NCBI GenBank assembly: GCA_012862575.1
Contig: BLSF01000080.1
Span: 62,001-126,000 of the forward strand
Reading direction: 5' to 3'
Length of the DNA: 64,000 nt
From: Parietichytrium sp. I65-24A
Taxonomy: Eukaryota; Sar; Bigyra; Thraustochytrida; Thraustochytriidae
Shown piece by piece: positions 6,879-49,541 of the stretch (position 1 is the first letter of the stretch; every line of letters starts with the position of its first letter). The notes beneath the pieces are model-generated. The model ran no database searches. It was not told where the DNA came from and was given only the letters and a program-made list of their open reading frames with translations. The position numbers and the translations under genes were made by a program.

Positions 6879-8051
6879 TTAGTCTGCTTTGGCTTTCGCA
6901 GATACTGTATCAGCGCTGCCAGCCGATGAGCGCTTAGCGGGGAACAGGAGCGCCTTTGTCGTGGAAATCAAGCTGCCAAAAATCGGAATCAAAGACGGGA
7001 AAAAGTACGGCACATAAACCGCAATCCAATGCTCTGGAGGGTAGTAGAGCTGCGGCAACAGTGCCGGATCATAATACGCATCATCTGCGGCTTTCATGGC
7101 AAGCCATGAGGCCTCCACACAGGCCGCTCTAGTCTCGTAGTCCGCCAAGCCGTCCAACTTGGCCATGGCAAAGTCAGTTTCGTTCAAAGCGATCCACGCG
7201 CGTTCGTGCACCCGGTCCGGCACGATCATGTCCGGTGCCGACTGCAAGAGCGCGTCCAGCGCCGCTAGCGTTTCCCGCACGGCCGCTGCCCTCGTACACA
7301 CCATCTCTCTGGCGCCGTCTGCCGTGAGCCTCCCGTCCGCGTCCAAGCGCACATTGAGGCTGTCTGCGAGCAGCATTTTCAACAGCTGCAGCGGCTCCAC
7401 GAGGTCCTCTTCGCTCACCCACGTCTTGTCGTTCACGCCGAACGGCAGAATGTACACCCCGCCGAGCCCTGGCACCGTGAACGCCCGCGTCCTGTGCCCA
7501 TCGGCCGTTCTCACCGCCACGCCGGACTTGGCGGGCAAGTACACCATCCAGTGCACCGTTCGCTCGCGTTCATGTCGCGGCATGGACTCCGCGTTCCACC
7601 CGTTCGCGCTGAGAAACCTGTACAGATCTTCTTCCATCACATCTCCATCCTGCTCCTGCTCGCCTTCCGCGAGCCGCGACGCGTACAGCACTTGCGCGTC
7701 CAGCGCGAACCCCAGTCCCATCTCCCCGCGCGCTTCTTCCAGCACATGTCGCGCCGCCTCCCAAGCCCAGCTGCGGCCGCCGCCGTTCCACGCTCGGGAC
7801 ACCAGCAGAGAGGCTGCCACGCGCGAGGACATGCCTGCTCGCGGGCCCTCGCCAACGTCGCTGCAGGGACCATCTGAGGGCGCATTGGCCTGCGCCCACG
7901 CCGGCCGGGAGTGTCCCGAGCTCGGAGACCACGGCCAGGACGTCATGTCCAACGCCGAGAGCTGCGAAGGACACCACGGAGAGAACATGAACATGAACAT
8001 GGCGCACAGAGCCGCGCTCGTGGCGCTGGCCCATCGCCAAACGCGGCCCAT
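6879..8051 (-). CDS. PIGS: PIG-S, GPI transamidase subunit
   Basis: This is a PIG-S/Gpi17-type subunit of the ER GPI-transamidase complex, which attaches GPI anchors to proteins with a cleavable C-terminal signal. The ATG at 8051 gives 390 residues; an upstream in-frame TTG extension lacks an ATG. A hydrophobic N-terminal segment (TSAALCAMFMFMFSPW, about 11-27) acts as signal anchor. The lumenal domain shows the family pattern of a 'VHWMVYLP' strand (from about 153), then GLGGVYILPFGV and long helices. A C-terminal membrane segment (YYPPEHWIAVYVPYFFPSLI) is followed by a short basic tail. It is shorter than human PIG-S (about 555 residues). A GPI-anchored candidate substrate is encoded at 46123-47982. 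Assignment rests on topology plus the lumenal and C-terminal motifs. Confidence 0.78.
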   Translation of the reverse strand: MGRVWRWASATSAALCAMFMFMFSPWCPSQLSALDMTSWPWSPSSGHSRPAWAQANAPSDGPCSDVGEGPRAGMSSRVAASLLVSRAWNGGGRSWAWEAARHVLEEARGEMGLGFALDAQVLYASRLAEGEQEQDGDVMEEDLYRFLSANGWNAESMPRHERERTVHWMVYLPAKSGVAVRTADGHRTRAFTVPGLGGVYILPFGVNDKTWVSEEDLVEPLQLLKMLLADSLNVRLDADGRLTADGAREMVCTRAAAVRETLAALDALLQSAPDMIVPDRVHERAWIALNETDFAMAKLDGLADYETRAACVEASWLAMKAADDAYYDPALLPQLYYPPEHWIAVYVPYFFPSLIPIFGSLISTTKALLFPAKRSSAGSADTVSAKAKAD

Positions 8052-8186
8052 CCCTGCTCCGCTGTCAACTACCCAAACAACACCAAACACCAAACGCCAA
8101 AGGGCAAATGCCAATGGGCAAATGTTTAGTGGGCAAACGCCGACTGCCAGTACTGCCAGTGCCGAGTCAGCTTATCCTGGCGCGTG

Positions 8187-10007: not shown

Positions 10008-10298
10008 TTCCCTCCTGCTTTTATTCACTTGATCTCACTTTGGCCTAAGGTGGACAGGCGCGGGAAGTCGGCGCTCAGCTTGCTCAGTTTACTCAGTAAC
10101 GTTTCCGGCAACTGAGACTCGGAACTTCACATACCGTACCAATGCGTAGTTGGTATCCGAGGTGCACACTCTCCCAAAGGTCCCGTCAGTCCCGTCTAGT
10201 CAGGTTAGGTGGGAGGATCAAAGTAGTTCTGCAACGTGGACTGGGAAGAGTATGCCGCTGCTCGCTCAAGTGCGTGCGTGGAGTCTCTGATATTGATA

Positions 10299-13200
10299 AT
10301 GGCTGACGAGGGCGGCGCAGATGGGGGGAAACAGCGCGCGGATATGAAGTATGTTCCATGGCTAGTCATCGTCGCTCTTCAGCGACCTTTGTGGTACCTC
10401 CTGTGCTTTATTGGGCTTGGCGCCACCTGCGGGCTCATGACGTACAGATTCATTGACCTGTCTGATCCCCTGGCAGGCCTCCGACTGGTGAACGATCCTG
10501 TTGCGGAGCAGGCTGACGGTTTCATCCTCGGAACTTACGCTGCCAACAATTTTTGGGCAGAGTACGAAGGCTCAACTGGGTCGGTGAAGCGCATTCAGCA
10601 ATCTGTCGGCTATAGATGCATGACGTTGCTCTTTGTCAGCCATGAGGCTGACAATGTGTTTACGCCTGAGCGAATTGAGGTTATGAAAGCCATCATTTCT
10701 GAGGTACAATCTTTTGGTGGCTTTGTGGACTACTGCCAAGTGAACCCCAACACAGGCATTTGCATCCCTTTCGATTCTGTCTTCAACTACCTGAATGTTA
10801 GTCGTGCTTCCCCACAAAGTCAAGCTCAGATTGACGCTCAGCTTGGCCTATTGTGGGAACGCAACAACGACCCGGATGATGATTTCGACGTCACTAGTTT
10901 TTTTCATCAATCGTTCGCAGGATACGCCCAACCGAAGTCAAATATGACGCGAGCCCATGCATGTTTCGGGCTTCCGATGGCCGGCTACTTCAACGAAAAT
11001 GATCGTCGAGAGGAACAAACACTTAACTTGCAGGACTGGATGGTCGCATCTGGCATGAAAGACTACCTCATGAGTATCTACGAGTATCCTCGAGCTGGGA
11101 TAACAACTTACACAAATCAGGGCCACTTGGAGGACATCCTTACCAACGAGATCTTGATGCAAGATATCATGCATTGCATTTTCGCAATTGTATTCGTGCT
11201 AGTTGTCATGACTCTCCACATGAGGAGTCTCTTCCTTGCGTCTTGTGCGCTACTGCAGATTCTCCTGAGCTTCCCTATCGCATTTTTCATCTACCGTATA
11301 ATTATTGGGATCGAGCTATTCGGAGGCTTGCAAAGCATTGCCATTTTCGTCGTGATCGGGGTGGGCGCGGACGACTGCTTCATCTACGTCGACGCCTACA
11401 AGCAAGCGCTGCAGTTTGTAGAGTCCCCTCTTTGGGACTCCGAGACGAGGCTCTCGTTCGCATACAAACGGGCAAAGTTCACCATGCTTGTGACGACGCT
11501 GACGACTGGGTTCGCATTTGTCATGTTATCAATCTCCAGTATCCCGACCGTTCGATATTTTGGAATCTTTGCTGCGATACTGGTTCTCACCAACTTTTTG
11601 ATGGTCATGACGATGTTCACATGCGCACTAGTGTTGTGGGATCGCTATTTCCGGAGGATGGGATGCAGGCGAAGGCCCTCACAGGAAAGAGTCGTCGGAG
11701 ACAGTTCGAAAGTTGATACTATAGATACCGAGCTGTCCACGGAAAGTTTGTCACAAGCCCAAACCGCACCAGCGCATGACGAGAAAAGGTCGCGATTGTG
11801 GAGATTCTGGACAAACAACGTGAAGTGTCAACTCAAACACTTTATAACCGTCAAAGAGGACTTTGTGGACAAGGATTTGGTGGAGTACGATGCTCTCTCA
11901 GTAGCGTCTTCCGGAAGAAAGAGCTTGCGTGCAGACCCACTTGCAGACGATGGGGATGTCGAAGATTCAGAAAAGAAGTCTGAGAGGAGCATCGCCAACT
12001 CATGTAGGGGTTTGCATTATTCCGTAGAGCCGCGCTCGTTTCTTGGCGAGCTTGTGGAAAGTGATTACCTTCGCAAGCCCCTTCCCAATCACAAATTGCA
12101 CCGAGTGACACAATTCTTAGTCAAACCTCGCAACAGAGCTGTGATCATGGTGGTTTTCGCTTGCATAGCAATTTCATGCATAGCAGTCTCCTCGCAATTG
12201 AAAATTGCTACAAAGGAAAACCCATTCTGGCCAGAAGGCCACTTCTTCTGGTGGTATCGCCAATGTGTTCCTGACCAGTTCCACGATGCCGCGGCAAGCC
12301 CTCGCAAAAGCTTTCACATACCTCACGGGCTTGAAGAGCCGTTTGCAAACCGAACAGGAACAAAGGATACAATCCCAGGGGATTTCGGCGCGCCAATCTT
12401 CTCTTCAACGATTGATTTTGAAGACCCAAGTACTCAAGAGTACATTTACGAAGAATGCAGGCAAGTTTTTGAAACGGATAGAAATTTGTACATGGGTGGT
12501 GACGGCTCCCAATCAGGATTTTGCTACATGGTAGCCTTTGCGCTGTGGCGCAGAGCACAAAACCAAACCTTTCCGATTGAGAAGCCTGCGAAGGTCTCTC
12601 CAAAATTAGACATACAGTTCCCCAAAGAAGCCATGTTGGATGGCGAGCCTTTCACGGATTTGTTGCTCGAGTTCGTCGACCGGGCGCAATTTGAGCCATT
12701 CAAGCGCCAAATCTGCCTTGCTCAGGATCGTGGCGAAAATTCAAGCCGTCTGGGAATGATTTTTGGCTTTCAAACCTTTGGAACTTCCTTGGACTGGGAA
12801 GATCCGTACTCGAAGCGCGTGATCGTGGATCGTGAATGGGAATTGTTTTTAGAGGTCCTACGAAAAGATCTCCCTCCTTCCATGGGATCCCCAGAGAATC
12901 TCTACATCACAGACTGGGACTACTTTGTTCTGATGAAAACGCAATGGTTTTTCATCGTGAACAGCTTTTCTAGTCTTGGACTCTCTACCCTCCTTACGTT
13001 GGGTTTTCTAGTGGTCGCGACGCGGAATTGGAAAGTCACTCTGTTGGCGGGGTTCACTATTGTCGGAATAACCGGAACCGTTCTCGGACTCGTCGTTCTC
13101 CTTGGTTGGGAGCTCGATACGATTATTTCAGTCAGCATCACGCTTCTCGTTGGTTTTGTCGCGGACTATACCATCCATTTGGCTGTGGCATACGATGAAG

Positions 13201-15254
13201 CGAATAGGGAGCGCGGCATCTACCGTCCGGACGAGAAAGTGGACCACGTAATGCGAAATATGGGAGTTTCTATCGCAGCTGGAGCCGCCAGCACATTTGG
13301 CGCAAGCACCATGCTCTTGCCAACCACAATCCGCTTCTTCACTCAGTTTGGAGCATTTCTAAGCCTTGCCGTTGGTGTGGCGATAGTGTGGGGTATCGTC
13401 TTTTTCCCTTCATTGCTTTCAAGATTCGGCCCATCAGGGGCAAAAGGCAGATTCATGTCGTGCTTGGAGAACGAAGAGGGGACTCGACTGTACGACACCA
13501 GCTATCATGCGAAGCGCACGAGAAGGGCTGCTTTCATTGCAGACAAGATCGCTCTTCTATTCTTCGTCGGCATTTTCTGCGCAGTTTTCTTTGGATACGG
13601 GGTGCGGACAAACTCATTCCTCTGGACACTACCACCGGAAAACCAAGTGGAAGTTCCTGATGTTTGGCCAGATGCTGGCATGCCTCCTCTAGAGGATCTG
13701 GATCAAGGCCGCTGGTACGCCATGTCACCTGGCGGGGAGACCATGTGCGCGAGCGGGGAGCCGTATTCCTTCTTCTTCCGCCGTGGGCGCTCTGACAATG
13801 CGAGCCTCATCATTGAGTTTGAGTCTGGTCAAGTGTGCTGGAATTTTGAGACCTGTAGAGCGGAGAATCAGTTCATACGAGACAATGTCGACATTATCAC
13901 CTCCAAGTTCGCAGATTCGTTTCAAGGAAATTCTCAGCCTCAAGGGCTCGCGGACCCAGCCGGACCTCACTCAGATTCTCATCATCTCTTCATCCCACTT
14001 TGCACCGCTGATTTTCACTGGGGCAACAACACAAAGGACTATGAAGGCGAGGTGGTTCTCCACCACAAGGGAGCCGTAAACGCATTTTCTGCTTTGAATT
14101 GGGTTCTGGGACAGTTCGAAGCGCTTGGTTTGGCAAGCGTCCTCATTACGGGTGTCGACTCCGGGTCCTACGCATCCATCATGTATGCTGGAGTAGTGTC
14201 AGCCTGGTTGGAGCTCTCCGGAAATGCTTGGGATGTCTCGCTCACTCAGCACGGAGACTCTGGAGTTGGTCTTTTTGCACCAGGGTTCTTACCCAAGGCT
14301 CTTGGTGCGTGGGGTGCCTCGTTGCGCAGCGATTTGCTGAATCTTGATTTTGGCAATCAAACGTTTGAGGTTCCAATTTGGCTCGTCGCACCGGATGGAT
14401 TTGAGAACCTTCTTTTGCTTTGGACGAACAACTACAACTTGACCGAGCTGGCGAGCTGCGTCGAATCGTATTTGAATGTAAGCGCGGGAGACGCATTTTT
14501 GGACCTCTTCGACGGAGATGGTCCGAGTAATGTCTTTGCAGCTTGCTCCGCAAATTTGACACTTCCAAATAACGGAACAGACCTACCGAGGCTGCCAACG
14601 TTTGGGATGAAGACGGAGGAATTGAAAGACGATAGTCTGGATGCTTTGCCGTGGATTGACTGGGTAAATATGACATGCATGCAAAGGGAATTGACAAATT
14701 TGGACAGCACTGCGCCCGCGAGCAGTGGCCTTGAGTGGTGGGAAGACTGCATCAATATCACTGGGTCCATCAACATCACGTCCTTCGACCCGCTGGATTT
14801 TTTCTTTGATGGGAACAGTGCACTTCAGCTCATTCCATCCATGTACCTGCTTTCCAGCATTCGCTTTTTCTACCACCGGTTCTCTCAATTTACATCTGCG
14901 TACGACTACCAGGCTGCACGGCAGCTAGCGGTTCAATACCTTGAGACTCCACTCCCCGGCGTTACAATCAGTGAGCAAAAGCTCTTTCACGAGACCTCCA
15001 CGATGCTCTATGACCTTTACCTGCCCTTTTGCCCGCCAAATTACCATCACTTTCTCGTTCCGGGAGACATACACGGCCACCTAAATAGAGACAGACACTA
15101 TCGGGTTTTGAACCACGAGCTTTTCCAAGTATTATACGGGTGGACTGCTGGAGTAGACACAGAAGGGCTGTCAGACACTTGGGACTGCAGAGTCCAAGAT
15201 CCGGAAGGCTGTGTGTTTGGCGTGGACACGAGGTTGCATACAAAGTACTTTTGA
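10299..15254 (+). CDS. Dispatched/Patched-like RND protein with C-terminal Notum-like ectodomain
   Basis: A 1651-residue single-exon protein. The ATG at 10299 precedes TM1 (about 22-55); the upstream extension begins only with GTG. The first ectodomain (about 60-285) leads to a sterol-sensing-type TM block (287-455) with GVGADDCFIYVDAYKQA, whose D358 and D359 sit in the GxxxDD motif of Dispatched/Patched/NPC1 proteins. After a cytoplasmic linker come TM7 (about 610), a second ectodomain and a second TM block (about 875-1040) with VGFVADYTIH (D956) and GVSIAAGAASTFGA. A thirteenth TM (about 1079-1100) then leads into a roughly 550-residue ectodomain with no further TM. From about 1141 this follows the Notum/pectinacetylesterase family: MCASGEPYSFFFRRG, FESGQVCWNFETC, FIPLCTADFHWG, VLITGVDSGSY, QHGDSGVGLF, PIWLVAPDGFE and CPPNYHH. 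In the GxSxG motif the nucleophile position is Asp1287 (GVDSG); Asp1366 and His1583/1584 can fill the other triad positions. Sequons cluster in the tail, fitting a lumenal or outside location. The transported cargo is unknown. Confidence 0.85.
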   Translation: MADEGGADGGKQRADMKYVPWLVIVALQRPLWYLLCFIGLGATCGLMTYRFIDLSDPLAGLRLVNDPVAEQADGFILGTYAANNFWAEYEGSTGSVKRIQQSVGYRCMTLLFVSHEADNVFTPERIEVMKAIISEVQSFGGFVDYCQVNPNTGICIPFDSVFNYLNVSRASPQSQAQIDAQLGLLWERNNDPDDDFDVTSFFHQSFAGYAQPKSNMTRAHACFGLPMAGYFNENDRREEQTLNLQDWMVASGMKDYLMSIYEYPRAGITTYTNQGHLEDILTNEILMQDIMHCIFAIVFVLVVMTLHMRSLFLASCALLQILLSFPIAFFIYRIIIGIELFGGLQSIAIFVVIGVGADDCFIYVDAYKQALQFVESPLWDSETRLSFAYKRAKFTMLVTTLTTGFAFVMLSISSIPTVRYFGIFAAILVLTNFLMVMTMFTCALVLWDRYFRRMGCRRRPSQERVVGDSSKVDTIDTELSTESLSQAQTAPAHDEKRSRLWRFWTNNVKCQLKHFITVKEDFVDKDLVEYDALSVASSGRKSLRADPLADDGDVEDSEKKSERSIANSCRGLHYSVEPRSFLGELVESDYLRKPLPNHKLHRVTQFLVKPRNRAVIMVVFACIAISCIAVSSQLKIATKENPFWPEGHFFWWYRQCVPDQFHDAAASPRKSFHIPHGLEEPFANRTGTKDTIPGDFGAPIFSSTIDFEDPSTQEYIYEECRQVFETDRNLYMGGDGSQSGFCYMVAFALWRRAQNQTFPIEKPAKVSPKLDIQFPKEAMLDGEPFTDLLLEFVDRAQFEPFKRQICLAQDRGENSSRLGMIFGFQTFGTSLDWEDPYSKRVIVDREWELFLEVLRKDLPPSMGSPENLYITDWDYFVLMKTQWFFIVNSFSSLGLSTLLTLGFLVVATRNWKVTLLAGFTIVGITGTVLGLVVLLGWELDTIISVSITLLVGFVADYTIHLAVAYDEANRERGIYRPDEKVDHVMRNMGVSIAAGAASTFGASTMLLPTTIRFFTQFGAFLSLAVGVAIVWGIVFFPSLLSRFGPSGAKGRFMSCLENEEGTRLYDTSYHAKRTRRAAFIADKIALLFFVGIFCAVFFGYGVRTNSFLWTLPPENQVEVPDVWPDAGMPPLEDLDQGRWYAMSPGGETMCASGEPYSFFFRRGRSDNASLIIEFESGQVCWNFETCRAENQFIRDNVDIITSKFADSFQGNSQPQGLADPAGPHSDSHHLFIPLCTADFHWGNNTKDYEGEVVLHHKGAVNAFSALNWVLGQFEALGLASVLITGVDSGSYASIMYAGVVSAWLELSGNAWDVSLTQHGDSGVGLFAPGFLPKALGAWGASLRSDLLNLDFGNQTFEVPIWLVAPDGFENLLLLWTNNYNLTELASCVESYLNVSAGDAFLDLFDGDGPSNVFAACSANLTLPNNGTDLPRLPTFGMKTEELKDDSLDALPWIDWVNMTCMQRELTNLDSTAPASSGLEWWEDCINITGSINITSFDPLDFFFDGNSALQLIPSMYLLSSIRFFYHRFSQFTSAYDYQAARQLAVQYLETPLPGVTISEQKLFHETSTMLYDLYLPFCPPNYHHFLVPGDIHGHLNRDRHYRVLNHELFQVLYGWTAGVDTEGLSDTWDCRVQDPEGCVFGVDTRLHTKYF

Positions 15255-15297: not shown

Positions 15298-15303
15298 AAT
15301 AAA
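15298..15303 (+). terminator. Polyadenylation signal of the RND gene
   Basis: A canonical AATAAA lies 43 bp after the stop codon, at a plausible distance for 3' end formation. Confidence 0.6.
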
Positions 15304-18008: not shown

Positions 18009-21000
18009 TCAGCCTAAAACACTACTTGAGTCTCCTGGCTGAAGCACGATGGCAGTGCTTTTCTCACTGTACACCGTCGGGTCCGGGACAACTTGATCTG
18101 CTCGAACAGATGTCCGGGATTGCTTGCCCTGCTTGCTTTGCTCAGACTTGGAGAGCTCCAAGCTCTTGATTCTGTCATTCATTTTGGCGACGATATCCCC
18201 ACCGATCCCCTCCGTGGAGAACTCCTCCCCAGTGTACCATCTTTTTAATTTTGGAAAGAAAATTAGACAGAGCACACCCCCATCATTGACCGCAATCACC
18301 CCTGCTTGAACAAACATGGATGTAGCCGGGTTTCCTGCGGTTATCAAGAGCACAGGGATAGCGATAATGAGTAACTCCAAATTCGAGAGGATCGCGACGC
18401 TCACATGCTTTGCTTCTGAGAAGGTCGAGTTGATTCCGAACGTCCTGTAGCATAGCACACTGGCGTAAAGCAAGAGAGCCGCGTGGTATCCGCCGACAAT
18501 TGCTGCAAAGAGAGAAATGTGCTCACAATGACACATACCAATGCTCGTGAGTGAGTTCCCGTATGCATCTTCACTCATACTGTACCTATTGTACTCAAGT
18601 GGTTCGATGGCTTGCCACACGATCACAAGGAATATCTCAATAGCTGTGTAGAGAGCGAAAGTAACCAGCATTTGCTCTGTGCTCTGTCGGGACCTGCCTT
18701 TTGAAGTTGCACGAAGAGTTGGGCGAAAAAGAGCGAGAATACGCTTTTGTTTCGAAAACAAGCTCGAAAACGTCACTGCAAAGCCTAGCATATACAGAGA
18801 AAGAGCTGCTCTGCAAGACATCGTTGCCATCTCGTTTCCACCATCGCCACCTGCCCGTGCACCTGACGAGTCATCCAGAGTTAAGGGAATGATAGATGCA
18901 GAAGAAATAATCGATCCAGACGCCAGTAAGAGTAAGAAAGGCAATTGAGCTGCTCGGACTTGGATCGAGTCACGTTGATGAAAGCTCCACGCTGCACAAA
19001 ACAACCCAAATGCGATGTTAAACCCACACAAAAGACGGCAAAAGCGTTTCAAAGTGAGGCTGTACCCTAGATCTTCGCAGACAACCCACACGTGAACTGT
19101 TGAAACAGAGGTGGTGAATTCGTCCTGCACAGAATACTCTATCGAGTCTAAGACCTTGAAAGCATATTCAGTCTCGTTAATTTGATACCCCGACTCCCCG
19201 CAAGTGTTTGCGGTATACGTAACCGTTATCGTGGTTACGGAATCAGCGTCAAAATGCAGAAGATCGTCCGGAATGGCACCCGTCTCAAGAAACACCGAGC
19301 CTGTCGAGTTCTGGAAGGTTAGGGATCCGTACGTGGGGAGTTTTGTGAGCGATATTTGAAGCATTTCCCCGTCAGGATCAGTGCCCGTGAGGCTTAGATT
19401 CATGGAGTTGCTCTGACCGTGCAACGAGCCTGCGTTGAAAAGGTATTTGGCTTCGTTGTCGACCTGCGCAGTTGGAACATCTTGCACAGAGGCGATGCTA
19501 ATGCTCACGGTTTCTTCCGAGGACATCCTTGTATGAGAGCCAACGCAGTCTGTGCTTTGGTAGGTAAAACTATCCTCGCCGTCTTCATCTTGGAATGGCT
19601 TATATAGCACTCGTTGGATGGGGTGCTCCAACATTGCTGGTTGTGTTTGTCTTGCTCCGATGAGTTTAATATAGTCCACATAGTTCCAATCCACAATACC
19701 AGTCTCTCCAGAGGTGTCCAATTCGAGCCGAATGGTTTTCGTTGGGAAGGAGGAGCGGCAGATTTGGCTCTGAAACACGAAAAAGAGCCCGCGCCCATTC
19801 GTTTCCTCATATTCTCGGTTTTGTGCTCCGGAACGGTACAATGTGTGCCAGTCGCCGTTCCCGTCGAGAGCTTTGATGCAAACCACCGCGCCTCCTCCGC
19901 GTGGAGACCCATACTCCACAGAGATTGGGAATACCGCCTCTTCATATTCAACCTCAATAAACTCAGTAAATCTTTCAGGGCCAGCCTCGGGGGTATAGTG
20001 CAAGCTTTGGCTGTAGTTATACGCAAAGCGATGTCCAAACACGTGTTGAGAAGATTTGCTCACGACCCAAGCGTCCTCTTCCAGAGTTTGAGTGCGTGGG
20101 CACCATACGCCCTCTCTGATCGGAAGAAGTTGCGACTTTTGCAAGCGAGGAAAAAACAATTTCCCGTTGTTGTGCAGCGCTGCGTCTTCGACACTGCAAT
20201 CGTCAGGATACGCAGCGCCATTCATCACACAGGGCACAAACTCCCCGTCAACTTCTCTCTCATAAGGATGAGTTTCAACATTATAAAACACAAGGGAGTC
20301 TTCTGACCATTTGGCGCGAATGTATCCCAGGACGCTTACCACGCTTTTCTCGGACTCGTTCGAGTACCTGTTAACTCTAATGATATCGCCAACTTCAATC
20401 TTCGCCGCGGTCTCCGCTTCGTCGAAGCGGTCGTCCTTGGAGCATTCCCCCCATCCTTGGTAAAGGCACTTTGAAGAAGGTCACACAGTGTGTTAGAGGC
20501 ACCACGCTGTAAATTCTAAAACAAATATGCAGAGATGATTGCAAAACTTACTTGAGGGGAACCAATAATATTCAAGATGTGGTAGCCCGAGGACACTCCA
20601 CCCCCCCACCACGAGCTAAAGTTTCGAATGCCTTTGACGTACTGATCAACCACAGGGCCCCCCACATCGTACAAATTGTATTCTTCTGTAATCTCACTCA
20701 ACACTGTTGTCCCATCTGCTTGAATCCTCTCTGTAAAAAGAGCACCTTTAGTTGGTAAACTCGTGATTACGAGCGACGATGTGCTATCCACGTCCGTTCC
20801 GTTCAAATAGATCCATTTTCCGTTTACATCGTCCTCTTCAATGTCAAAGCTCAATGTCTCCACGGAAGGGAGGTTGTTTTGTGGAATGAAAGACATTGTA
20901 ACAATCAAATCGGAGCTTGTCGAGAGACCAGACTCTACAGACGTGAACTTGACTGTAAAACTCGAATAGAATGCCTCCAAATCACTCTGTTCCACTTTGA

Positions 21001-41238: not shown

Positions 41239-43764
41239 ATGCGGCGCGGCTTTGCGCTACTCTCTGCGGCGCTGTCAGCAGTCGTTGCGGCGGGAGAAAA
41301 CTCTACGCTGAACACGAACGTCCTTCTCTTCAACGCGTTGTCCCTACTTGACGGGACTGTATTGAGCAACTCATTTTTGCAGGCGCACATCGGTGCAGTT
41401 CTTGCGGCCTATCATTGCAGCACAAGCGATGGCTCCGTCATTAGTGAGCTCGCGGACCTCAAAACCACATGCCCCTCGGTCAACTTTACGTACGCAACCA
41501 CAGACACCCAGCTGGAGCCTTCCACGGTGATGCACTCATTGGTAGATAATCTTGAGGATGGTTACGATTTTATCATGGGCGCAGGAAGGAGTGAATGCAG
41601 CGCTCCGCTTGCCTTAGTGTCTGGTGCGCTGGAGATCCCAGTCATGAGCGGAATGTCAACAAGCCCCGACCTTAGCAATCGCGACTCGTATAGCAAGTTT
41701 ACTCGAACCATTCCATCGGACGAAGACACGGCCAAGGTAATCGCTTATCTCGCCCATTCTTTTGGATTGAGCAACGTCGGGATGGTGTACACAGACGACA
41801 CGTTCGGTGGAGCACTTCGTGACGCCATGATCACCTATGGCTCGGAAGTCAATGTCACCGTGCACACGTACGGGTTCCGTTACAACAAGGCGAGTACCGC
41901 GCGGACTGCAATCAAGGCAGCTGGAGTGTCTGCGAAACTCAACGTCATTTTCATCCTGGCCTTCACTGATGGTCTCAAAGAGGCGCTCGAGGAGGCTCTT
42001 GAAAATGGAATGTATGGAGAGAGGAAAGCTTTCATCTTTGTGGACTCCGTCTCCGCCGATGACGTCAACGAGTTTATTCAGCGCTCCGAGAAACATGCTG
42101 CCATGATGGAAAACCAGATCTGGATTCGTGCTAATGCTATGAGCGACGACAACCCAACGTTTGCAAAGTTTGAGAATTACTGGGCTTCCCTGGCTAATGA
42201 TCCCCCACAAGCGCTGCTAGACTTTCTCAACAGCAATCATCCTGGGGGAAGCAACTTTAAGGCGCCTCAAAGCTACAACGAGTCTTCGTTTGCAAAGATT
42301 GATGCAAACTTCTTCTCTGAATCAGTGCGGTCCAGTACCTACCTTCCGTACACCTATGACTCGGTCGCTGCATCATGCAGGGCGCTATGCATGGCTTCCG
42401 CACAGCTCGGAGAGGCGAGGACCGGTGCTTCTTACGTGGACATGCTATATAGCGACAACTTTCCTTTTGATGGTGTCTCAGGCAGAGTTGCGTTCGACAA
42501 TGAGACTGGCTCGCCTTATTCTAAGAGCACCAACTGGGAGTATCTTAAAATCAAGGTGAAAGACAATGCCATGACATTGGAGCTCGTTGGCCGTTGGGTA
42601 GATGAGGATTGGAAATTTATTGAATCCGCTCTAGAGTTCCCAGGGTACACTTCTGAGTTCCCTACGGATACAGACATTCCAGTTGAAGAGCTAAATCTCA
42701 ACCCAAAAGGGTTCCGCGCATTTGCCATCGCTTCTTTTGTGATCGTTGAAGCCTTTTGCTTCTTCGCTGGTCCGTGGTACATGTACCACCGCAAGTCCAA
42801 CAGGTTGGTGAACACGCAGCCGCGGTTTCTTGCAATCGTGGTGTTGGGTGTGGCGACGGCGTCAATCACTCTACTGTTTACATCGGCGGATGATTCTGAC
42901 TCGGGCTGGTCAGTGAGAGCCATGTCTTTCGCGTGCAACGCTCAGCTTTGGTTCTGGTCGGTTGGAACTTCCATCACGTACTCTGCTCTGATCACTAAGC
43001 AGTATCGAGTGTGGAGAATCTTTGACAACCCAAACCTTCGCAAGCGCAAAATTGACGACTGCTTTCTCTACTCTGTAATCGCCGCGATCACAGGGTTCGT
43101 GATCGTCCTGCTCCTCATTTTCACGCTCGTGGAGCCTTTAGAGTATGAACGTCGTGTAGCTAGCGTGGACGCTTATGGCTACACCGTGGAGTCGTACGGA
43201 ATCTGCGCGGCAGGAAGCAATGCCATCGCGTTTCTTATCGTGTTGCTTATATATCATTTCTTGCTCTTGTTCGTTGCATGCAGAATTGCGTTCAAGGTGC
43301 GCCTTGTGGACACCAAGTTCCAAGAGAGTCAGCAGATTTTTATGGCTGTCTTCGGTACCACACAGTTGTACATCATTTGCGGACTTATGTATTTTGCTGT
43401 TGATACCACTCAGTCGGATATTCGCTCGCTCTTGTTGACATGCATTGTTAGTTTCACCTCGCTCGGTACGCTCGGAATCGTTGTGCTGCCGCGCATGATT
43501 GAGTTTTACCGCAACCTCCCTCCACCAGCTAAAACCAAGACCTCTACCAACAACACCTGCAGTTCTGTCAATCGCACGGACGAAGCGAAGAAGGCCACTC
43601 GCACAAGATTCTTTTCGAAAAAGTCCAATCATTCGTGCAGTTTGGACACGGAGGAGAATAGTCGCATGCAAATGACCGATGAAGAATCCCAGCTTCCGGC
43701 AACACAAGGAACCCCGCCTTCTTCGCCAATCGCCGAGAATGAAATGAACATTCAGATACAATAG
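41239..43764 (+). CDS. GABA-B-like class C GPCR with Venus-flytrap domain
   Basis: An 841-residue single-exon receptor. A signal peptide (about 1-18, MRRGFALLSAALSAVVAA) precedes an ANF-receptor/periplasmic-binding-type ligand domain (about 25-440): IMGAGRSECSAPLALVSGAL and IPVMSGMSTSPDLS are classic lobe motifs, and NVGMVYTDDTFGG starts the second lobe. There is no Cys-rich domain, as in GABA-B receptors. Seven TM segments span about 491-755 (AIASFVIVEAFCFFAGPWYM, YSALITKQYRVWRIFDNP, LLLIFTLVEPLEYERR, LGTLGIVVLPRMIEFYR). The Ser/Thr-rich cytoplasmic tail (756-841) contains NHSCSLDTEE and PATQGTPPSSP, possible phosphorylation sites. Expected at the plasma membrane coupled to G proteins. Ligand unknown; an amino-acid-like ligand is inferred. 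Confidence 0.9.
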   Translation: MRRGFALLSAALSAVVAAGENSTLNTNVLLFNALSLLDGTVLSNSFLQAHIGAVLAAYHCSTSDGSVISELADLKTTCPSVNFTYATTDTQLEPSTVMHSLVDNLEDGYDFIMGAGRSECSAPLALVSGALEIPVMSGMSTSPDLSNRDSYSKFTRTIPSDEDTAKVIAYLAHSFGLSNVGMVYTDDTFGGALRDAMITYGSEVNVTVHTYGFRYNKASTARTAIKAAGVSAKLNVIFILAFTDGLKEALEEALENGMYGERKAFIFVDSVSADDVNEFIQRSEKHAAMMENQIWIRANAMSDDNPTFAKFENYWASLANDPPQALLDFLNSNHPGGSNFKAPQSYNESSFAKIDANFFSESVRSSTYLPYTYDSVAASCRALCMASAQLGEARTGASYVDMLYSDNFPFDGVSGRVAFDNETGSPYSKSTNWEYLKIKVKDNAMTLELVGRWVDEDWKFIESALEFPGYTSEFPTDTDIPVEELNLNPKGFRAFAIASFVIVEAFCFFAGPWYMYHRKSNRLVNTQPRFLAIVVLGVATASITLLFTSADDSDSGWSVRAMSFACNAQLWFWSVGTSITYSALITKQYRVWRIFDNPNLRKRKIDDCFLYSVIAAITGFVIVLLLIFTLVEPLEYERRVASVDAYGYTVESYGICAAGSNAIAFLIVLLIYHFLLLFVACRIAFKVRLVDTKFQESQQIFMAVFGTTQLYIICGLMYFAVDTTQSDIRSLLLTCIVSFTSLGTLGIVVLPRMIEFYRNLPPPAKTKTSTNNTCSSVNRTDEAKKATRTRFFSKKSNHSCSLDTEENSRMQMTDEESQLPATQGTPPSSPIAENEMNIQIQ

Positions 43765-46122: not shown

Positions 46123-47982
46123 TTACAGCACCGCGAAAGTAGCAGCGAACACCAAGAAGATGCTGCTGGCGAATTGAGTGGCGGACGAAGGCGTGGAGGA
46201 GTCTTCGTTTGTTGTTGGAGCATTGGTTGTCTCATCGGAATCTCCACTTGTTGTTGGAGATTTAGTGGTGTTGTCGAGAAATTCCGGAGTGTTGCAAACA
46301 TCGAGGTTATTTTCTGCGTTACTGACCATCCCGATTTCAAAGACCGAGATTGTGGAGCTCACAGAGCCGCTGACAATGAGGATGTCGGTTCCGGTAGGAG
46401 AGTCCTCAGCATGTACTGCGTACATTGCCTCAGGGTCTATGAGAAGAGACGAACCTTCGGAGCAGTTTGCAACTGCATTAAGCGAGTGGAAGACAGGCTG
46501 GGAGAGATCGGTAATGTCATAGAGCGCAATTAAGCCTGGGCGCTCAAGGCCGACAAATAAGAGCTCTGAGGAGCCTTTGGTCAAAACCGCAAGAGACTCT
46601 GGCTCCGGGCCCTTCTTCTTGGATCTCTCTTCAGTCCCAAGAACTCCTTCATCGATGTTGAAGAACGGTGCGGCGTACTTGGCCATCATTTGCTCAAACT
46701 GATCTCCAGACTCATAAAAGAGCTCACCGCTTTCAGCATCAAACACTCCAAAAGAACGTCCGCCCCACGCATAAAACCCGCTGTAGGTTCCATTGGCAAG
46801 CTTGCCTTCGTTTTCTGAGACCTTGAATGCCTCGAGCTCTTCGTCAATGGTAATGTTGCCGTTTGCCAATGTGAGAGAGCTGACCTTGGCATCCGCTTCA
46901 GTGTCGACCTCAACCACCTCGCCGTCTTCTTCGTACTCATTGAGGAGCTCGTACTGGTCACCCTCGTTTGCAGTGATGATATAGGTCTTGCCGTTGTATG
47001 TGTGTGCCTTGATGGTGTCTGGCTGGTACATTCCGAAGAGGCCATCGAAGGTTTTGATCTCTTGTTTTTCATTATTGGTAATGTCCAGTCCATTGCCCTC
47101 CAGAGAGTGGTCCTTGAAGCCGAGAGGCATGATTCTTTTAGGCTCTTCACTGAGGCTTTTGAGGTCGTTGAGATTGTTCTCGTACACCAAGAAAACGTTG
47201 CTCTCTTGGCAGATGACGTACACCTCGTACTTGCCTTCGGCATTCGCATCTGAGTACGTGATGTACTCTGGCTCGAGATATGCAGCGATGTCATTCCCGT
47301 TTGGTTTGTGTGCGACGGTGTTCAATTTCTCGACCGTCGCCTCGGAGAGATCCTGCAAGCTGGAGTGAGAGACAGAATAAGTTGTCTTGTTTGCAAAATC
47401 CGTGGAACAGACTTGGGTGATGCCGCCGTAAGGCTCCACACCGTCTTTTGGCTCTCCTTCATTCGCACTATAGAGACAAGCCTCTGATGGGCCAAAAGAA
47501 ACGTGGTCGGGAAGGGGGTTTCCGGTATTCACAGTCTCGATGATTTCGTGCGTTTTGGCGTGAACAAAGACGATCTCACCCCCCTGAGTCTGGATCGGGT
47601 CGGCCACGGCGATAGCAAATACGTCATGCTTCTTGCTGTATGCCACGGAATTTGGAACTCCGTTGGTCGCGATGGAGTTGTTGAGGACTGGTTTGGCATC
47701 AGATCCAAGTTCGTAAATATCGAGCCTATTGTCCGCGGAATTGACCACAAGGATCTGCTTGTTCACCGAGTCGAAAGCGAAAAACTCCGCCTGCCCTTCG
47801 GCAGGGCTGGTAGCATTGACCTTGAAGTGCTCCACCAGGCGGAGCTTATACCTAAACTCCCCACTCGCTTCTACGCGTGGAAACGCTTCAGTGGGCACAG
47901 AAGCTTGCGTGAAATCCACCGCAGTGGACTTGCCTGCAAACGCGCTAAAGACGCCAACTGCGAAGGCCAATTTGCGAAGCAT
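46123..47982 (-). CDS. Secreted choice-of-anchor-I family protein, GPI-anchored
   Basis: A 619-residue extracellular protein of the choice-of-anchor-I family (related to mesenchyme-specific cell-surface glycoprotein and some alkaline-phosphatase-like proteins). The ATG at 47982 gives a signal peptide (MLRKLAFAVGVFSAFAGKSTA); the frame is open upstream only from GTG. The beta-propeller-like domain (about 40-560) carries the family signatures YSANEGEPKDG and YIITANEGD, plus KKGPEPESLAVL and LLFVGLERPGLIALYDI. A Thr/Ser-rich stretch (NTTKSPTTSGDSDETTNAPT) and a hydrophobic end (FASSIFLVFAATFAVL) form a typical GPI-attachment signal. It would be a substrate of the GPI transamidase, whose PIG-S subunit is encoded at 6879-8051. 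Enzymatic activity is not established for the family. Confidence 0.88.
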   Translation of the reverse strand: MLRKLAFAVGVFSAFAGKSTAVDFTQASVPTEAFPRVEASGEFRYKLRLVEHFKVNATSPAEGQAEFFAFDSVNKQILVVNSADNRLDIYELGSDAKPVLNNSIATNGVPNSVAYSKKHDVFAIAVADPIQTQGGEIVFVHAKTHEIIETVNTGNPLPDHVSFGPSEACLYSANEGEPKDGVEPYGGITQVCSTDFANKTTYSVSHSSLQDLSEATVEKLNTVAHKPNGNDIAAYLEPEYITYSDANAEGKYEVYVICQESNVFLVYENNLNDLKSLSEEPKRIMPLGFKDHSLEGNGLDITNNEKQEIKTFDGLFGMYQPDTIKAHTYNGKTYIITANEGDQYELLNEYEEDGEVVEVDTEADAKVSSLTLANGNITIDEELEAFKVSENEGKLANGTYSGFYAWGGRSFGVFDAESGELFYESGDQFEQMMAKYAAPFFNIDEGVLGTEERSKKKGPEPESLAVLTKGSSELLFVGLERPGLIALYDITDLSQPVFHSLNAVANCSEGSSLLIDPEAMYAVHAEDSPTGTDILIVSGSVSSTISVFEIGMVSNAENNLDVCNTPEFLDNTTKSPTTSGDSDETTNAPTTNEDSSTPSSATQFASSIFLVFAATFAVL

Positions 47983-49541
47983 GCTGTCGGACGAGAAGAA
48001 ACTATTGCTGGCACTTGCTGTGCTGTTCCAATTTCGGGTTTGCTGAAACCTCGGCAGATTCCCATCTGCCACTTATGGGAATCTGCCACTTTTCCAATCT
48101 CTGCTAGCTCGCTTATCCCCCCATGCCTGCTCTTCATTCCAGTGGCACAGCTTGTGAAGAGATCAGAGTAAAGATTCATTATAGGTATCCGAGCTTGACG
48201 AAGGAAAGAAAATCCATCGCTGACGACCTTTCTTCGCCGTTTTGTACCCACAAGGAAGCACGCTCTAGCTAAGTGAAGCCACGAAGTGCAGCGTAAACAA
48301 ACCCTATGGGAGGTGGGGTGCGCTCTAGCCTTTGCATTCACGTTTTCACAATCCTTGTCTCACAACGCAAACAACATTCGCTGAGAAGAAATTAAATTTT
48401 TTGGTAATTGTGTAGGCATAGTCCCAAATGCATGTAATAGTTTGGCAAGTTTGCCCGTCAAGTCCTATTCGGAATTATGACAAAAGCGTAAGGAGCTTAA
48501 ATTACATGCACTGCAGATGTACAATTCACGTGTATTCACGTAGGCAATCATGTCCAATCAAAGATCACCACTCATTCACTCATTCGCTGTTTTCCGACTT
48601 CAACTTGTCAACTTGTCTCTCAACCTGTTGACACGGAAAGCGTTTACTGAATAATCAGCTAAGTTAACAGCAAGTTAGCAAACAACAGCCAAGATTCGAT
48701 ACGCAACTCTCGACGCCACTGCCATCCACTGCCATTGAATCTTCGTCGCACACCCACCCTTAGCAATATCTTGCGGCACATTGAATCTCGGCGATGACAT
48801 CGACATAGACCTTGACCTTCACATGGAAGTGCAGGGCATGGTAGAAGAATGGGGGCTTTGGGAACTTGCGATTTCTCCCCTGCTCGTTTTCACTTCGAGT
48901 GCCCTCTTGCCCCGCTGTTGATCCAGTGTGCTTTTAAGTGCTTTACTGGACTGACTGACATGTGAGTGTCAGTCCTCCCTCGATCTTCACGACATGCCTG
49001 AGCGCAAGGTTTCGGTTGTCTGTGAAGAGTTTTGCCTTTTATCGAGCCTTGTTCTGCTAAATGCGGCTGTGAGACTTGGTAAGCGAAGCTCTGTTCTGAA
49101 CTTGAAAAGGCAAGAGCGGGCCACAAATCGTCCAAGATTCTCTGATTCATCCAGCTCCGCCTTCCTCCCGTTGCACCGTAGACTTTGCGCGCATACAAGC
49201 CTTGCTCCGTCGGCACAACATGGCAACATTCATCACCGACTTGCAACGCCAGTACCATCGTGCTCATCGACAATCTTTCATCTTCCATCTTCCATCTTCC
49301 ATCTTTCACCTTCCACCGTCCATCGAGTCCATCGTCATGCATTATTCACGCTCCAGTCCAGGGAACCCTTCGCTGTTCTCAACGGACCCTTGCTTGACTT
49401 ATTGTCTGACTACGTATTATTATAGCAGTGAAAAAGTGCGAGCAAGATGGCAAAAGTGCGAGCTTGGCGGCGTTGGGAAAGTTGGGAATCTGTCAACGCG
49501 GGAGAGAGGCGAGCGAAGAGAGCGCGACGGTAGAGTAAACG
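47983..49541. other. Divergent intergenic region, 1.6 kb
   Basis: Holds promoters for the choice-of-anchor gene and the pseudokinase, a dispersed repeat with flanking duplication (48261-48329) and a CATCTTC tandem at 49278-49314. No gene is called; frames up to 150 codons overlap on both strands without domain signatures. Confidence 0.55.
48261..48329 (+). mobile_element. Solo ~50-bp dispersed repeat flanked by 9-bp direct repeats
   Basis: The 49-bp core at 48271-48319 (starting AAGTGAAGCCACGAAGTGCA, ending GGAGGTGGGGT) matches the arms of the inverted-repeat element at 17351-17511 with few differences. CGCTCTAGC stands at both sides (48261-48269 and 48321-48329), as a target-site duplication would. 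There is no coding capacity and no clear terminal inverted repeat within the unit itself. Confidence 0.6.

Follow-up and report, generated by a model that had tools for sequence, protein, structure and literature searches.

What can an esterase-like domain do at the end of a lipid pump once its catalytic serine is gone? The question is raised by one gene in a 64,000-nucleotide stretch of Parietichytrium sp. I65-24A (contig BLSF01000080.1, positions 62,001 to 126,000; "the window" in what follows), which is part of C80, one of the 172 contigs (42.5 Mb) of the host genome that was scanned. The gene occupies 10299..15254 of the forward strand and encodes 1651 residues, in which a Dispatched-like pump of the RND superfamily, a thirteenth transmembrane (TM) segment and a domain of the pectinacetylesterase (PAE)/Notum fold follow one another in an open frame with a full-length homologue, P0001. 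Dispatched releases lipid-modified proteins (cholesterol-modified Hedgehog, using Na+ flux) and Notum removes the lipid from one. The profile comparisons, the predicted fold and the full-length homologue support the reading of this protein as an RND pump with a tethered PAE/Notum-fold domain lacking the Ser nucleophile. No description of an RND pump with a PAE domain was found in the literature searched; the components themselves are known. The PAE/NOTUM family is listed as a digestive enzyme in MAST stramenopiles, and the passages that list it do not mention a pump (PMC8163842).

The pump and its junction with the tail

The frame is listed from a GTG at 10236, its first ATG is at 10299, and the stop codon (15252-15254) is followed by a polyadenylation-like AATAAA at 15298-15303. 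A sequence-only reading of the window had taken pump and tail as one gene, and a single uninterrupted frame indeed runs over the junction with no in-frame stop. The search for the same fusion elsewhere was also positive: P0001, of 1640 residues, has the same domain order and 41% identity over the full length, and it was the sole protein found with query residues 1090-1651 (E 1.5e-125). The search from P0001 for a third RND-PAE fusion returned P0001 only. Since scoring in these searches was confined to the 8000 candidates with the most words in common with the query (7997 for P0002, a second homologue considered below; both are JGI sequences), more such fusions may exist.

All the Pfam matches of the pump were over cut-off (sterol-sensing PF12349, 1e-16; MMPL PF03176, 8.1e-12; Patched PF02460, 9.1e-9), and the top match of the RND part among PDB sequences was Dispatched-1 (E 1.2e-44), with NPC1 and Patched far behind at about 2e-13. 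Going along the forward strand, the first large outer loop (residues 41-289, 10419..11165), recognised by hydropathy and the RND layout, is 38.4% identical to P0001 and is followed by TM2-6, the sterol-sensing/Patched block with D358/D359 (residues 290-455, 11166..11663), placed by Pfam and the Dispatched-1 alignment. The second large outer loop (residues 631-885, 12189..12953), also recognised by hydropathy, is 37.6% identical to P0001 and leads to TM8-12 with D956 (residues 886-1045, 12954..13433), aligned with Dispatched-1. The two RND halves and their acidic residues had been noticed from the letters alone; in the alignment D358/D359 and D956 pair with the TM4 Asp-Asp and the TM10 Asp of Dispatched-1, which we take to be D572, D573 and D1051 of human DISP1, and all three are also present in P0001. 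The likeness to Dispatched covers the RND core, its sterol-sensing block and these residues, and we know of no Dispatched protein with a C-terminal PAE domain. Dispatched is described as a 12-TM protein (PMC8453165), and a D572N/D573N/D1051N triple mutant of human DISP1 is on record (PMC8630017).

Of the 12 RND segments expected, a simple hydropathy scan of the window protein detected 11, and it showed one more at residues 1084-1102 (13548..13604, forward strand; hydropathy 2.46), in agreement with the thirteenth TM segment proposed before. Its counterpart in P0001 is at 1021-1039. Considering that this segment lies behind a Lys/Arg-rich loop, by the positive-inside rule the PAE-like tail would be on the outer side of the membrane.

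Other RND matches in the host genome lie in seven places. By eye, no PAE-like tail was seen on the genes in six of them, and the seventh is a 539-residue frame on contig C75. At C3:431000-442500 there are two adjacent Dispatched-like RND genes (L021, L022) whose second outer loop, also inspected by eye, contains Pro/Thr-rich repeats and a stretch like EGF.

Family and fold of the tail

The tail is formed by two PAE halves and an insert that separates them, all on the forward strand. The N-terminal half, with an altered oxyanion loop and the nucleophile elbow (residues 1145-1345, 13731..14333), was delimited with a hidden Markov model (HMM) of bacterial PAEs and hhalign; the insert (residues 1346-1508, 14334..14822), by spacing and low model confidence; and the C-terminal half, with the probable acid and base (residues 1509-1610, 14823..15128), by its identity to P0001 and hhalign. 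The tail scored 136.3 bits on the bacterial HMM, built from 60 rows, nearly all of it in the N-half (134.5 bits for the stretch 1133-1342). As 1000 shuffles of the tail gave a maximum of 2.7 bits, chance is excluded for this half. By hhalign the probability was 99.7% for the N-half (E 1.3e-26) and 91% for the C-halves (E 1.1e-6). Taken alone, the C-half of P0001 obtained 24.8 bits on the bacterial profile, higher than all of 2000 shuffles, and that of the window protein only 6.2 bits, inside the shuffle range (best 11.3).

The curated cut-off of Pfam PF03283 (26.6 bits) was reached neither by the window protein (23.8 bits, at 1148-1305) nor by P0001 (24.5 bits), for which the database's precomputed family list does include PF03283. 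Taking into account that this cut-off is missed and that the bacterial profile nevertheless gives 136 bits, we use the label PAE/Notum-fold homologue. The profile match foreseen by the sequence-only reading came from the bacterial PAEs and from hhalign, and not from the Pfam family; the PAE motifs that it listed do stand in family order in the Pfam and bacterial profile alignments. With phmmer, the tail alone had no matches in the PDB.

The bacterial PAEs were chosen by the motif PYCTGDxH, present at 118 loci or more, so that the columns of this motif are not evidence. GxSxG played no part in that choice; it was found downstream at 114 of 118 loci, and rows lacking it were then dropped. Two of the other four loci are cut by the locus end (L026, L085) and two look like chance matches (L032, L070). 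Of the 114 loci, 73 were complete enough, and removal of near-copies left the 60 rows, one of them archaeal (L116). Long frames at some of the bacterial loci (1559 residues at L110, for example) were considered as possible bacterial fusions, but their first 60 residues resemble GC-rich frames lying outside genes, or parts of a leader.

The predicted structure of the tail resembled the Notum-like alpha/beta-hydrolase fold in Foldseek, as anticipated; the VIA-align values are a re-scoring of the Foldseek matches and nothing further. An AlphaFold2 model of the tail from the two-row alignment had a predicted local distance difference test (pLDDT) of 29.7. The spacing from W1338 to D1536 is 197 residues in the window protein and 241 in P0001, and 38-50 in the 60 bacterial PAEs. 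This large and poorly modelled insert may be an enlarged lid.

As to which members of the family the tail is near, bacterial PAE-family proteins (PF03283) were the closest among the sequences compared, with 39% identity over 194 residues to one from Acidobacteriota. In the tree the RND-fusion tails were placed among PAEs of Myxococcota, Acidobacteriota and Bdellovibrionota, in a set of 7 rows with support 99/95. The branch leading to the two tails is long (1.36), and the tree, which is unrooted, includes neither plant PAEs nor a complete Notum row; it is therefore no evidence of gene transfer. A two-row profile of the tails reached only 14.8 bits against Notum (E 0.065). Notum is 14% identical to the window tail, which differs from it in being tethered to a pump, in a changed oxyanion loop and in an insert of 150-200 residues, as measured relative to bacterial PAEs. 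The designation "Notum/PAE-like" thus stands as PAE homology, and the specific parallel with Notum and Wnt is weak, considering how much nearer the tail is to the bacterial PAEs.

This kinship is also what favours a carbohydrate ligand. The tail could be a pseudoesterase that binds polysaccharide of the wall or outside the cell and so serves to anchor the pump at the cell surface or to position it there, and PAEs constitute the carbohydrate esterase family CE13 (PMC5465549). We consider such a role unlikely, since the union of the tail with a sterol-sensing, Dispatched-like pump points instead to lipid.

Catalytic columns

The catalytic columns were read from an alignment of 62 rows, namely the 60 bacterial PAEs, the window protein and P0001. 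Asp1287 (codon GAC, 14157..14159, forward strand) occupies the nucleophile column, as had been proposed, where all 60 bacterial PAEs have Ser; in the predicted model it lies exactly between strand and helix, in the spot expected for the nucleophile. The residue is not always Asp, for P0001 has Gly. The other two places of the triad had been given to Asp1366 and to His1583 or His1584. At the first of these P0001 has Glu, and only 14 of the 60 bacterial PAEs have Asp; the two His positions are His in 4 and 2 of the 60, respectively. They were replaced by Asp1536 (14904..14906) and His1592 (15072..15074), both on the forward strand, which stand in the columns of the family's catalytic acid and base, are Asp and His in 62/62 rows, and are paired in the same way by hhalign. 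Their role as acid and base is probable: the assignment is firm for P0001 and by profile-profile comparison, and weak from the C-half of the window protein alone. The description of the tail as catalytically dead holds for the Ser nucleophile, while the acid and base columns appear intact. By comparison, the Notum triad is Ser232/Asp340/His389 (PMC8172013), with Ser232 at the place of Asp1287, and plant PAEs have the motifs GCSxG, NxayDxxQ and HCQ (PMC5465549). In contrast to the tail, Ser, Asp and His are kept in all 60 bacterial PAEs.

The oxyanion loop is mostly GGGAC in the bacteria, SGQVC in the window protein and DGAPC in P0001. Its Gly1177 is kept in the 62 rows. Column 1176 is Gly in 51/60 bacteria, Ser in the window protein and Asp in P0001, and column 1178 is Gly in 58/60, Gln and Ala, respectively.

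These columns bear on whether the tail could still be an enzyme with changed chemistry, having either Asp1287 as nucleophile together with Asp1536 and His1592, or Ser1288 as a shifted nucleophile. An Asp nucleophile is known in haloalkane dehalogenases and epoxide hydrolases. The acid, the base and Ser1288 are present in both RND fusions (position 1288 is Ala in 56 of the 60 bacterial PAEs), and Gly1177 is maintained. Nevertheless, an Asp nucleophile is not common to both fusions, given the Gly of P0001; Ser1288 is one residue beyond the tip of an elbow that aligns without a gap; and the oxyanion loop has changed at 1176 and 1178. An enzyme of this kind has, in our estimation, a low probability.

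Comparison with P0001 also indicates how the tail is conserved. The PAE C-half has the highest identity of the 13 stretches compared, 60.8% (62/102); the identity is 57.2% in the sterol-sensing block, 46.8% (94/201) in the PAE N-half, about 38% in the outer loops and 32.5% in the insert. Eight of the 11 Cys of the window tail align with Cys in P0001, and four of these are near-invariant in bacterial PAEs. The loss of the nucleophile, the low identity of the insert and the poor recognition of the window C-half by the bacterial profile (6.2 bits) would be in line with a decaying remnant of a formerly active fused esterase, which has no present role. This is improbable, because the PAE halves are conserved at a level equal to or above that of the pump, with acid, base and most Cys kept. 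Least credible of all is an artefact in which two adjacent genes, or an assembly error, are read as one, because the independent P0001 has the same order and an in-frame junction over 1640 residues, and the frame has no stop.

A proposed binding module on a putative lipid exporter

The explanation that we favour, with a confidence just short of even, is a Dispatched-like, ion-driven RND lipid exporter with a C-terminal tethered PAE/Notum-fold binding module in which Ser has been replaced. The RND core would export lipid at the expense of an ion gradient, and the extra TM helix would carry the tail on the extracellular or lumenal side. With its Ser nucleophile lost, the tail most likely acts as a binding module, taking a lipid, an acylated molecule or a glycolipid from the outer vestibule of the pump, or presenting such cargo to it. 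This arrangement can be likened to that of NPC1, which has a 13-TM layout and in which, as in the window protein, an extra TM adds an outside domain to the RND core; there, a lumenal N-terminal domain binds sterol beside the core. The extra domain of NPC1 is N-terminal and of a different fold, whereas that of the window protein is C-terminal and PAE-like. Binding of cholesterol by the N-terminal domain of NPC1 (NPC1-N) has been described (PMC8530017).

Several observations weigh against this explanation. The fusion is known from two sequences only, the window protein and P0001, and hydropathy also marks two segments within the tail of P0001 (1228-1246 and 1286-1304). Asp1536 and His1592 are retained, which would be unexpected if all chemistry had been lost. 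The oxyanion loop is altered and not proven broken, since the oxyanion hole is formed by backbone amides (PMC8172013), those of the GGx loop and of the residue next after the nucleophile, and in the profile alignment Notum itself has Trp at column 1178. Most Foldseek rows span only about 220 columns, with a TM-score by target of about 0.44, and the pLDDT of the insert is below 50 across much of its length. No match to the Wnt or HH_signal families was obtained in the host genome; the controls were silent too, so that absence is not shown.

The host genome has two other genes in which a PAE/Notum-family domain is carried by a transporter, at C82:84333-88757 (L018) and C3:779383-784221 (L019). 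Unlike the window protein, these have the PAE domain at the N-terminus, before an ATP-binding cassette (ABC) transporter with an ABCG-like layout by eye. Their PAE domains exceed the Pfam cut-off (66.2 and 48.3 bits). The nucleophile position is Thr in both and Ser in their homologue P0002 (1501 residues). A profile of the ABC-fusion domains matched Notum with E 3.8e-19, and scores on the bacterial PAE profile were lower than for the RND-fusion tail (P0002, 39.9 bits for the best stretch; C3, 29.5; C82, 21.8). In the tree they form a branch of their own, apart from the other rows, with support 100/100. A loss of the catalytic His in C82 and C3 at GQHG, kept in P0002, was considered and rejected, as in the Notum alignment His389 falls some two columns away from another His; with this column unsettled, only the change of nucleophile is claimed. 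No further PAE was found in the host genome by two protein queries or by the family search, which can miss genes, as it missed the fusion gene of the window too. In scans of viral contigs, pattern matches were confirmed in 0 of 61 cases for the RND-fusion tails and 0 of 47 for the ABC-fusion PAE domains.

Judging from one unrooted tree, PAE domains of two kinds seem to have become linked, independently, to transporters of two kinds. A broader proposal, more doubtful than the exporter itself, is that a single lineage of microbial eukaryotes has twice linked outside domains of the PAE/Notum family with lipid transporters of unrelated superfamilies, RND/Dispatched and ABC, with Ser lost or changed in four of the five fusion genes seen (window, P0001, C82 and C3, not P0002). 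These would constitute an undescribed class of pumps in which the pocket of a dead esterase, built into the transporter, serves as receptor for cargo, either lipid or glycolipid.

Around the fusion gene, a match to PIG-S, a subunit of the glycosylphosphatidylinositol transamidase, lies upstream on the opposite strand (6879-8114). The window also encodes a class C G-protein-coupled-receptor-type 7TM domain (7tm_3) preceded by a cadherin-like domain (Cadherin_4) at 18009-20342, reverse strand; a class C receptor-like protein that combines 7tm_3 and an ANF-receptor ligand-binding domain, at 41239-43764, forward strand; and, in this eukaryotic contig, a Choice-of-anchor I domain at 46123-48072, reverse strand, of a family known mainly from bacteria. 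Elsewhere in the host genome, a single frame of 1088 residues has two Hint domains at C96:1939-2661, both matched over cut-off. PfaA, taken as a marker of thraustochytrids, gave 13 matches, none of them over cut-off, which is a weak test of a labyrinthulomycete origin.

With a Dispatched-like pump and a Notum-fold domain united in one protein, and serine catalysis apparently lost, it becomes possible to ask directly by what means RND lipid exporters capture their cargo, or hand it over, outside the membrane. Should the tail bind lipid, the protein would join NPC1 as an RND pump provided with a tethered binding domain of its own, and a family known as esterases would gain a pseudoenzyme role.
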